IMG/VR virus record: IMGVR_UViG_3300022200_000101
Location: 1-43,402 of that record
DNA from: a virus
Direction: 5' to 3' (one strand)
DNA: 43,402 nucleotides
Shown here: positions 7,419 to 20,210 of the stretch, in pieces
Position numbering within the stretch: the first letter of the stretch is position 1
Layout of the letters: the number at the start of each line of letters is the position of its first letter
The notes under the pieces: generated by a model
Told to the model about the DNA's origin: nothing
Seen by the model: only the letters and a program-made list of their open reading frames with translations
Database searches by the model: none
Position numbers and translations under genes: made by a program

Positions 7419-7919
7419 TTAATCAGGGTTATTGCGATTATCAGCATCGTTACCATCACAGCTATTATTAAGAGTGATATAAAATTTTCGACTGACAAAA
7501 TTATCACTCCCTAGAATCGCAAATATTATATCTAATGGTATCGCAATTTGCTGTCTAATTGTATAAAAATTAACAAACCAGTTTGATTCTATCGACATAC
7601 TAACGGCTTGAGTTGCGTTAAATATCATTGATGTAAGCACAAAGACTGCATAGATAATGCCGACTTTCTTATGCTTATTGGTGTTGATGCATAGCGCGAT
7701 GATGATTAGAAGTTCAATGGCCGCAAATGATATGTAGTAAATGGTTGCCAAGTTAAAGCTGGTTTCTGACACAATTCCAGTATCATCTATCCAGCCAAAT
7801 AAGCTAACCTCTAAGCAAAAGTAAGCGCAATAATACGCTATGATTATTGCTGGTATGAATATATTTTTAGATAATAAAATGGCCGCGATAACAGCGACCA
7901 TTGCAATGATGTTTAACAT
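7419..7919 (-). CDS. Multi-spanning membrane protein
   Basis: A 166-residue hydrophobic protein with four or five likely membrane helices (about 2-17, 19-42, 60-82, 88-110 and 128-142) and an Asn/Asp-rich hydrophilic tail. An in-frame GTG at 7925, directly after the preceding stop, would add two residues; the ATG at 7919 is preferred. I recognise no family. Its neighbour with one membrane helix suggests the two work together, for instance as a holin/antiholin pair or in superinfection exclusion. This is inference only. Confidence 0.6.
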   Translation of the reverse strand: MLNIIAMVAVIAAILLSKNIFIPAIIIAYYCAYFCLEVSLFGWIDDTGIVSETSFNLATIYYISFAAIELLIIIALCINTNKHKKVGIIYAVFVLTSMIFNATQAVSMSIESNWFVNFYTIRQQIAIPLDIIFAILGSDNFVSRKFYITLNNSCDGNDADNRNNPD

Positions 7920-7925
7920 AAACAC

Positions 7926-7997
7926 CTACTTAGTTTTTTTTGGATCGCCTGACTTGTTGCGATTTTCTCTGCCCTTAACGGGCTTACCAGATGGCAT
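7926..7997 (-). CDS. Very small basic protein, 23 residues
   Basis: MPSGKPVKGRENRNKSGDPK then KTK, preceded by a strong AAGAGGA ribosome site five to six bases from the ATG. Nine of 23 residues are Lys or Arg and there is no hydrophobic stretch. The stop lies directly before the membrane-protein start, so it sits within the same operon. The strong site and tight packing argue it is translated; the function is unknown. Its high charge would suit nucleic-acid or protein binding. Confidence 0.55.
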   Translation of the reverse strand: MPSGKPVKGRENRNKSGDPKKTK

Positions 7998-8035
7998 AAT
8001 AAATCCTCTTATGAGTGAGTGCTTATTATAGCACT

Positions 8036-8278
8036 TTAGTCTTTAATAAACTCAATAGCTCGCTCAACTCGTGCTTTAAACGAATAAACACTGTTACGGT
8101 TAATGTCATCGGTCGCACCAGCACAACCAGCACCAGACCCCTTAACGCAATCAACAACAGGCACGCCATAAACCATGTGTAACTTGGTTGAGTGGATTAC
8201 GCTACCTTTAACTTTACTTCCGCCAGCAACTAGCACTTTAACTGCTGACTCGAAATCCTTTAATTCTACATTGCTCAT
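8036..8278 (-). CDS. Hypothetical protein, 80 residues
   Basis: First minus-strand gene of the unit that starts at the divergent region 8279-8365. It is a soluble protein with two Cys close together (Val-Val-Asp-Cys and Gly-Cys-Ala) flanking a Gly-rich turn, and a helical charged C-terminus. No family is recognised. It would be transcribed from the minus-direction half of the element at 8305-8345, separately from the structural genes downstream. Confidence 0.6.
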   Translation of the reverse strand: MSNVELKDFESAVKVLVAGGSKVKGSVIHSTKLHMVYGVPVVDCVKGSGAGCAGATDDINRNSVYSFKARVERAIEFIKD

Positions 8279-8304
8279 TTTCTAAACCTTTTTTGTAATT
8301 GATG

Positions 8305-17876: not shown

Positions 17877-18551
17877 ATGCAAGAATTCAAAAAAGAAGAA
17901 CCTCAGTCAACAATAAGCGCTCACGCAATTGCTTTATTGATTGGCAAAAACAATCATCAAGAAATAAATTCTATCGCAACAAGGTTATACTGCGCAGGAA
18001 TAATATCATCAGATCCAAACGCTAAAGAGTTAGGAAGGTGTAACCTAACAAGGGTTGATTCTATCATTCTTGTTGCACAGGCTTTTCCTTCTTCAACAGT
18101 AGTTATTGTTAATTATTGGGATGAAATAAAAGACAGTGTGGAACCGTTAATCTCATACAGAGAGCTTGACCAGCGATTGAGAGCTATTGAACTCAGCAGA
18201 AATATTGACGACCATTTTTCAAACTCTAGATTTAAGGATGAGGCAGATGAAGTTATCGCTTGTCGAGGAAATCGATATGGCTACAGTGGAAATCAACTTC
18301 AAACAACCGAGGCTATACTAGCAAGAAGCCGATATTTTAATGGGCTAAGTCCTGATAATATGGAATCTAAATCAGCCAGTGGAATCAAGGGTATTGCATC
18401 AACAGCCGCTAGTTATTGGCGCGTTGTACTTGCTCCTGATGGGTGGAGTCGTGGAACCGAAAGAATTGACTACGGATATTTTGACACGCTAACAAAGGCC
18501 GTTGATTTTCTGATAGATCAAGAAATTAAACACGGATTACGTACACAATAA
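17877..18551 (+). CDS. Unknown protein, possible DNA-binding regulator
   Basis: A 224-residue protein preceded by a folded leader RNA. Its N-terminal half (ISAHAIALLIGKNNHQEINS) could form a helix-turn-helix-like unit, loosely recalling phage Rha/antirepressor N-termini. The C-terminal half is rich in Arg, Asp and aromatic residues and has a conserved-looking AASYWRVVLAPDGWSRGT stretch. I do not recognise a family with confidence. The elaborate leader suggests its level is controlled. Confidence 0.55.
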   Translation: MQEFKKEEPQSTISAHAIALLIGKNNHQEINSIATRLYCAGIISSDPNAKELGRCNLTRVDSIILVAQAFPSSTVVIVNYWDEIKDSVEPLISYRELDQRLRAIELSRNIDDHFSNSRFKDEADEVIACRGNRYGYSGNQLQTTEAILARSRYFNGLSPDNMESKSASGIKGIASTAASYWRVVLAPDGWSRGTERIDYGYFDTLTKAVDFLIDQEIKHGLRTQ

Positions 18552-19492: not shown

Positions 19493-19513
19493 TAAAAAAC
19501 CCTCATATGAGGG
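19493..19513 (-). terminator. Terminator of the tRNA/structured RNA transcript
   Basis: On the minus strand the self-complementary CCCTCATATGAGGG is followed by TTTTTTATTG. It faces the terminator at 19451 and ends the minus-strand RNA unit that begins near 20175. Confidence 0.9.
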
Positions 19514-19665
19514 AACTTGTTACCGAATCGACACGATGGCTAATCGTCATGAAGGCCAAATCAATACCTTTGTCTGCAACATTTCGTCAGGGTCTAAGCA
19601 GGAGATTTTTGCTATTATAGATGACCTTTTCGCCTCTGCCCATGTTGCGCGGGGATGGAGTAATT
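19514..19665 (-). ncRNA. Structured RNA, 3' segment after the tRNAs
   Basis: A 150-base stretch between tRNA-Ser and the terminator with no gene. GCAACAT at 19576-19582 pairs with ATGTTGC at 19642-19648. Inside, GCAGGAG (19598-19604) can pair with CTCTGC (19634-19639) with one bulge. GGTC (19591-19594) can pair with GACC (19623-19626), crossing the previous helix as a pseudoknot. The pairing is less extensive than in the 5' segment. It is likely part of one larger RNA that includes the tRNAs. Confidence 0.5.
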
Positions 19666-19752
19666 TGGCGGAAATAATAGGACTCGAACCTATAAGCCGA
19701 TTTCTCGACGACGAGTTAGCAACCCGCTGCAATACCATTATGCGATACTTCC
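19666..19752 (-). tRNA. tRNA-Ser (anticodon GCU)
   Basis: All parts are present: a 7-bp acceptor stem (GGAAGTA / TATTTCC), D-arm (GCA / TGC), anticodon stem with loop TTGCTAA (anticodon GCT), a long variable arm of five pairs with a GAAA tetraloop, a TTCGAGT T-loop with a 5-bp stem, and an encoded CCA end at 19668-19666. The long variable arm confirms a class II (Ser) tRNA. It reads AGC/AGU codons and lies six bases downstream of tRNA-Arg. Confidence 0.96.
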
Positions 19753-19758
19753 TGAATT

Positions 19759-19835
19759 TGGCACTCCACACAGGACTCGAACCTGTAACCTAGGCGGTAG
19801 AAACACCTTGCGCTATCCAATTGCGCCAGTGAAGT
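19759..19835 (-). tRNA. tRNA-Arg (anticodon UCU)
   Basis: A 77-base cloverleaf: acceptor ACTTCAC / GTGGAGT with one G-U, D-stem GCGC / GCGC, anticodon stem AGGTG / CGCCT with loop TTTCTAC (anticodon TCT), a short variable loop, T-stem ACAGG / CCTGT with TTCGAGT loop, and encoded CCA. It reads AGA codons (and AGG by wobble if modified). AT-rich phages often bring tRNAs for AGA. Confidence 0.96.
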
Positions 19836-20175
19836 TAAGTTTGCATCATTCACGCTTAACAACGTTAAATTAGCTTGCTAGTCATAGCCTCGTAGCTGGC
19901 AGATAAATCACCTCCTTAACGGATTAGACTTAATGTGATAGCAGGTTAACACAGCGTTGGATGTAAAAATTGGTTATCACCACCGTCACACTTTTGAATA
20001 ACCTTCCCTGCTATCACATTGTTAAAGTGTCTTCGTCATTCTAGATTGCGTCGCCTAATGTCTGCCTGAATATCCTAGAAAACACTTTAAAAATATCCAC
20101 TCGTAACGTGAGTGAGTCGGTTTTCGTAGTGTTGTCTCACTTTGTGACAGTCGCTTACTTGTTTCAAGTAGCTTA
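19836..20175 (-). ncRNA. Large structured RNA, 5' segment (GOLLD/ROOL-like candidate)
   Basis: About 340 bases with no credible gene and at least six helices. A 14-bp perfect stem joins 20007-20020 with 19932-19945, enclosing GGTTAT/ATAACC (19972-19977 with 19998-20003). A 9-bp stem joins 20082-20090 with 20022-20030, enclosing TTCTAG/CTAGAA (20075-20080 with 20039-20044). Hairpins lie at 20098-20114, 20133-20149 and 20153-20172. It also holds TAAGGAGGTGAT (19907-19918), a perfect complement of the last 12 bases of bacterial 16S rRNA, without a start codon at working distance. It precedes two tRNAs on one probable transcript. Confidence 0.75.
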
Positions 20176-20181
20176 AAACAA

Positions 20182-20210
20182 ACAATATAACAATTACTTT
20201 TTACTGTCAA
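20182..20210 (-). promoter_or_regulatory. Promoter of the structured RNA/tRNA unit
   Basis: On the minus strand, a perfect TTGACA at 20205-20210 overlaps the last codons of Rz1. -10 candidates are TATTGT (17-base spacer, 20182-20187) and TATATT (15-base spacer, 20184-20189). The expected start is near 20175. No GTCAA mirror box is present, unlike the early elements. Confidence 0.6.

Follow-up and report, generated by a model that had tools for sequence, protein, structure and literature searches.

We found that a virus record of 43 kb, IMGVR_UViG_3300022200_000101 (analysed over its full length of 43,402 nucleotides and referred to here as the window), encodes on its minus strand a structured phage RNA whose family is apparently undescribed. 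The family comprises 42 distinct phage or virus loci, from phages of Shewanella, Salmonella, E. coli, Klebsiella and Edwardsiella and from metagenomic viruses. In the first hairpin of its conserved core (H1) the RNA displays (U)AAGGAGGUGAU(C), which is complementary to the 16S rRNA 3' end (the anti-Shine-Dalgarno sequence). We are close to certain that the core family is a real structured RNA, and we give a probability of roughly 0.5 to the reading that it is a late phage RNA which docks on the 30S subunit by pairing with the anti-Shine-Dalgarno.

The transcript in the window and its neighbours

An own promoter and a strong terminator had been predicted around about 680 bases with no credible protein, and all three were confirmed on the minus strand. 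The promoter is of the sigma70 type (TTGACA-17-TATTGT, 20210-20182, 10/12) and overlies the 3' end of an Rz1-like ORF; the intrinsic terminator is CCCTCATATGAGGG-TTTTTT (19513-19494). The only ORFs overlapping the non-coding RNA between them are chance ones of 60 and 74 aa, one of which runs through the tRNA-Ser gene. Promoter-like sites were not in excess across the region (8, versus 7.6 in its shuffles). The layout TTGAC(A/T)-17-TATTGT, or one closely similar with an unchanged 17-nt spacer, lies upstream of the core in 11 of the 14 relatives checked, several of them unrelated phages, including the Salmonella phages 9NA and Sasha and the Klebsiella phage e270.2.

The expected position after the lysis genes was also found: upstream of the RNA is an Rz-like spanin gene (PHROG 8821, E = 1.8e-12), which is preceded by a lysozyme-like ORF (PHROG 3108, an entry that lists no function). 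A small lipoprotein-like ORF which overlaps the Rz-like gene (20499-20194) had no PHROG match and is called Rz1-like by position only. The named members of the family lie in late regions: the core follows Rz in Edwardsiella phage GF-2, is flanked by head and neck genes in 9NA, Sasha and Escherichia phage Bas82, and is near the major capsid gene in Shewanella phage 3/49 and in 1.076.O. In phage 9NA the annotated start of gene ST9NA_042 (L105 1645) is inside the core and its frame crosses a terminator; this is likely an over-extended annotation.

From its 5' end the transcript contains a leader hairpin, H0 (CACUC-ACGUUAC-GAGUG, 20114-20098), for which counterparts were seen by eye in L012 (CACUGC/GCAGUG) and L038 (CACCGC/GCGGUG), followed by two arms with variable interiors. 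Arm P-A (20090-20022) is closed by pairing of 20090-20078 with 20034-20022, 13 bp including one G-U, and arm P-B (20020-19932) by the 14-bp perfect stem which had been predicted, 20020-20007 with 19945-19932. The conserved core of 80 nt (19918-19839) lies directly upstream of the tRNAs and contains three hairpins: H1 (AGGU-GAUUU-AUCU, 19913-19901), the 5' strand and loop of which are the 16S-complementary sequence; H2 (GCUA/UAGC, 19896-19877); and H3 (19874-19843), an interrupted stem with the cap ACGUU-GUUA-AGCGU, where most members have a GNGA tetraloop.

The core is followed by the two predicted tRNAs, tRNA-Arg(UCU) at 19835-19759 and tRNA-Ser(GCU) at 19752-19666, both found by ARAGORN and by Rfam (56 and 52 bits respectively). 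The description of a structured RNA with embedded tRNAs holds in that the promoter-to-terminator RNA contains both of them; it does not hold in that they are not an integral part, an idea we rejected because tRNAs vary in close relatives and are absent in other phages. Nine kinds of tRNA are associated with the family, either downstream, upstream or absent; among relatives of the window the identity changes to Pro in L005, and in L006 and L009 the tRNAs are absent or decayed. Phages 3/49 and 9NA have members with promoter and terminator and no tRNA, and the RNA therefore persists without tRNAs. In Bas82, too, no tRNA adjoins the core. The two tRNAs are passengers, gained or lost from member to member.

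The 3' segment (19665-19514) was found only in the near relatives L004, L005, L006 and L009, and a BLAST search of it against phages returned nothing. The possible pseudoknot suggested for this segment is not supported, as conservation is limited to near-identical relatives. An AUCUCCU in the segment could form a 7-bp pairing with AGGAGGU in the core; in L006 and L009, where the core motif is altered, this pairing is not maintained, and the complementarity is perhaps a chance one.

The core family and its covariation

Folding energy was unremarkable (z = -0.8 for the whole transcript and -2.1 for the 5' segment) and was rejected as structural evidence because it is too weak; comparison with relatives was therefore needed, and the structure is credible because of covariation and not folding energy. 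Relatives were retrieved using the 147-aa protein encoded at 21473-21030 as a query. Among them the RNA region is a mosaic: near relatives have the leader and 3' segment in common, both upstream arms differ in length and content, and the 80-nt block is retained. BLAST also found this block in Shewanella phage 3/49, where the core ends an RNA of about 200 nt with its own promoter and terminator.

More distant members were gathered with exact and degenerate sequence patterns, and two covariance models were built, R1 from 10 sequences and R2 from 19. Outside its training set R1 identified 8 loci (E = 6e-7 to 2e-4, over 711 kb). R2 identified phage 9NA (E = 1e-6 per genome), Klebsiella phage e270.2 (E = 3e-5) and Edwardsiella phage GF-2 (E = 4e-4), all three likewise outside its training set, as well as Escherichia phage Bas82 (PQ850612, core at 17891-17970), a plasmid copy and further metagenomic virus loci. 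The window, which is in the training set of both models, scores 94 bits with R1 and 89 bits with R2. The strongest new members score 35-60 bits; a few weak matches, L136 and L129 among them (24-27 bits), resemble chance hits, and scores of about 25 bits need to be treated with care. As a control, most pattern-matching sequences inside genes stayed below the model threshold. Pattern matches which were coding DNA or lacked the structure were removed by eye or by R2 (L020, L025, L026, L027, L029, L030, L032 to L037 and many others).

A search of genome contigs for the core gave two chance matches only. In E. coli genomes one prophage-type member had no match, and another had a match which was plasmid-borne. 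An intact-looking copy of the core is present in E. coli plasmid pEC732_IMP14 (L238 4008-4083) and in 17 other plasmid records, where it sits between the mph(A) and mer resistance genes of multi-resistance plasmids; it is probably a phage-derived fragment.

In the 42-sequence alignment, which was fitted to the model and counts related sequences separately, 93.7% of cells pair, compared to 27-43% when partners are slid by 1-3 columns. Changes on both sides were found for 14 of the 19 core pairs across the 42 loci (131 both-side-change cells versus 35 ± 6 in shuffles), and the covariation score was 0.44 versus ≤ 0.08 with slid partners. The outcome was the same when only 10 or 19 sequences were used. 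A lack of covariation among homologues was one of the outcomes which would have refuted the original prediction, and it was not observed. Both-side changes were found in 4/4 pairs of H2, 10/11 pairs of H3 and 0/4 pairs of H1; the H1 stem varies little and its pairing is therefore not proven. It should be noted that the search patterns had fixed letters at some positions of the inner H3 stem and, in part of the set, of the Shine-Dalgarno; they left H2 and the outer H3 pairs mostly unconstrained, and these show strong covariation. The core in the window has the same H1-H2-H3 architecture with covariation.

The upstream arms also pair with different letters: nine P-A arms from eight loci pair at 12-13 of 13 positions, and P-B does so in most loci compared, with the interiors of both arms being of very different lengths between loci. 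Several other arrangements were observed. As seen by eye, P-B encloses a tRNA-like body in L006 and the region 7700-8300 of that locus contains a duplicated P-A and decayed tRNA-like bodies within the arms, as if tRNAs had been inserted into or eroded within the RNA. A tRNA-like piece replaces P-A in L031 (also by eye), and in L049, L059, L070, L083, L085, L098 and L101 the 5' part is of a second type, in which P-A/P-B are replaced by a CCCCGACAAGG-like motif located 20-45 nt 5' of the core. Eight U directly follow H3 in L166 (4323-4397), where H3 itself may be the terminator. Two stretches with no genes, 1.9 kb in Escherichia phage Bp4 (L104 670-2600) and 0.85 kb in Shigella phage DS8 (L108 1040-1890), have no core and contain tRNAs or tRNA-like pieces together with an element, AGUCCAGACGAUAUCUGAGUGAC..., which also occurs in 9NA and in Klebsiella phage e270.2. 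These stretches appear to represent a further class of large phage RNA.

The 16S-complementary motif and its proposed function

The motif in the window, UAAGGAGGUGAU (19918-19907), is perfectly complementary to 12 nt at the 16S rRNA 3' end. Its pairing with GGAUCACCUCCUUA has an energy of -20.8 kcal/mol, and the window thus shares the complementarity seen in the family. Because GGAGGTGAT was part of the pattern which retrieved many of the divergent members, the uniformity of the motif in those members is partly due to ascertainment. We therefore rely on 13 members tested as motif-free finds, although one of these, L069, was first met via a motif-containing search and the strict set is the other 12. 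In all 13 the pairing with GGAUCACCUCCUUA has an energy between -12.4 and -22.9 kcal/mol, which places them among the best 0-0.6% of random 24-mers from their own locus; the weaker 16S match of the 3/49 subgroup (-12.4 kcal/mol) is the weak end of this range. The letters of the motif differ between subgroups (GGAGGUGAU, GGAUGGUGAU, GGGGUGGUCA and GGUAAGGUGA). In a pattern search from which the motif was omitted, all whole-structure matches carried such a sequence, including the new member L115, and chance matches did not.

No AUG, GUG or UUG was found at an initiating distance behind the motif in 26 of the 42 members, the window included, if four GUGs which belong to the motif itself are set aside. 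The remaining 16 have one of these codons 7-10 nt behind it, and some of them could initiate translation. A start codon and frame conserved after the Shine-Dalgarno was not found across the 42 members; one candidate mini-ORF (AUG CCA GCU ACG AGG CUA UGA, in L005 and L022) was discarded since it is not kept in other members. The motif is kept in the motif-free finds while 26/42 members have no start codon, and therefore it is the ribosome-directed sequence that is conserved and not initiation.

Docking on the ribosome is the simplest reading because a structured, full-length Shine-Dalgarno is conserved, usually with no start codon. The core with this sequence is the key feature of the RNA and was absent from the original description. 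We infer that the RNA is transcribed during infection, binds ribosomes and affects translation. An RNA of 200-700 nt would be made from its own promoter, situated among late (lysis or structural) genes, with arms of variable length as its 5' part, the core from H1 to H3 as its 3' part and optional tRNA genes on either side. H1 would present (U)AAGGAGGUGAU(C) to the 16S anti-Shine-Dalgarno, usually with no start codon, and by this pairing the RNA would dock on 30S subunits, with H2 and H3 holding H1 in a shape which allows docking and not normal initiation. Once docked, the RNA might occupy or tether ribosomes late in infection, so that Shine-Dalgarno-led mRNAs would be translated less, or ribosomes and phage tRNAs would be kept together. 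Such a decoy or tether role late in infection is a tentative proposal. We would put forward just as cautiously the broader idea of a widespread class which captures 30S subunits by a start-less Shine-Dalgarno hairpin, acting as a late decoy or tether and bringing phage tRNAs or tRNA-like arms there.

Two other readings, both of which we consider unlikely, would give the RNA a different role. The core could be a translation initiation site, serving a leader peptide or minigene that regulates the RNA or a downstream gene through its translation or through stalling. This would explain the strong Shine-Dalgarno, the AUG of L005 and L022 and the UUG of the 9NA, GF-2 and L060 groups at 7-10 nt, and the 9NA gene annotated as beginning inside the core, but most members have no start codon, frames and stops vary among members, and compensatory changes track the RNA stems and alter codons (ACGUU/AACGU in 9NA versus AUGUU/AACAU in Sasha). 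The RNA could otherwise be a GOLLD/ROOL-like structural RNA which self-assembles into a cage or oligomer via its arms and hairpins, the Shine-Dalgarno-like stretch being merely one contact. It shares the life-style of those RNAs, being phage-encoded and tRNA-associated with a variable 5' and a conserved 3' part (PMC12286853), and abundant phage ncRNAs adjoining lysis genes are known in ICP1 (PMC7567579); against this, neither GOLLD nor ROOL is matched in sequence or structure, and with a core of only 80 nt and whole members of about 200 nt (3/49) the family is far below the size of cage-forming RNAs.

It is somewhat less likely still that the element is a passive part of a phage tRNA operon, a leader or spacer whose folding guides RNase processing. 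Several members do have a tRNA which begins 4-11 nt after the core. However, ARAGORN finds a same-strand tRNA no further than 700 nt away in only 12 of the 44 loci (directly downstream in most of these), it is upstream of the core in three loci (L141, L096 and L109), and several members have a terminator directly after the core and no tRNA. That the RNA has no function, as an arbitrary transcript with chance folding, would agree with the ordinary folding energy of the whole transcript, but is very improbable given the promoter layout shared by 11 of 14 loci, and for the core it is already refuted by the strong covariation across 42 divergent loci.

If ribosome capture by the docked RNA is true, phages would be taking over host translation by means of an RNA. 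GOLLD, ROOL and the ICP1 transcript, as structured phage RNAs of unknown function, are a standing puzzle; the motif of the present family has an obvious molecular partner, the 16S anti-Shine-Dalgarno, which makes its function directly testable, and members are present in accessible phages such as Escherichia phage Bas82. The family RNA may serve phages as a means of gripping host ribosomes.

Comparison with known phage RNAs

The resemblance to GOLLD and ROOL which was originally suggested holds for the general character of the RNA (phage-encoded, tRNA-associated, late-located, with a variable 5' and a conserved 3' domain) and not for covariance-model matches. The Rfam search proposed with it gave nothing but tRNA above the gathering score in Rfam 15, and nothing else at weak thresholds. 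With the curated GOLLD model (416 positions) the window and six other members gave nothing at E up to 10, and the transcript nothing at E up to 5. The curated ROOL model (574 positions) had no match either; it also failed to match in the control genomes, but cmscan with all Rfam models likewise gave nothing for ROOL. We found no description of the family in the open-access literature, with unindexed and subscription literature outside the scope of that search.

GOLLD, the nearest analogue, assembles as a 14-mer cage. It is encoded by phages or prophages, often lies near tRNAs or includes them, and has a variable 5' half and a conserved 3' half; its level is raised during lysis (PMC12286853). 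In work cited there it is reported to bind ribosomes in pull-downs, a point in favour of docking. Our family is like GOLLD (RF02032) in its phage location and tRNA association, both of which apply to the window, and differs in its core, which is defined by an exposed anti-Shine-Dalgarno complement, and in its members often being only 200-400 nt. With ROOL (RF03087), a large phage RNA near tRNA islands, no shared structure was found. The intergenic ncRNA of ICP1 (about 800 nt) is likewise a phage ncRNA next to lysis genes and is the most abundant ICP1 transcript (PMC7567579); its membership is unsupported, the best score of the core model there being 7.3 bits. Like phage tRNA clusters, the transcript has tRNA-Arg and tRNA-Ser genes together, but the conserved element here is not a tRNA and occurs without tRNAs. 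We conclude that this is a new RNA family, and that what is new is the family itself and its Shine-Dalgarno hairpin.
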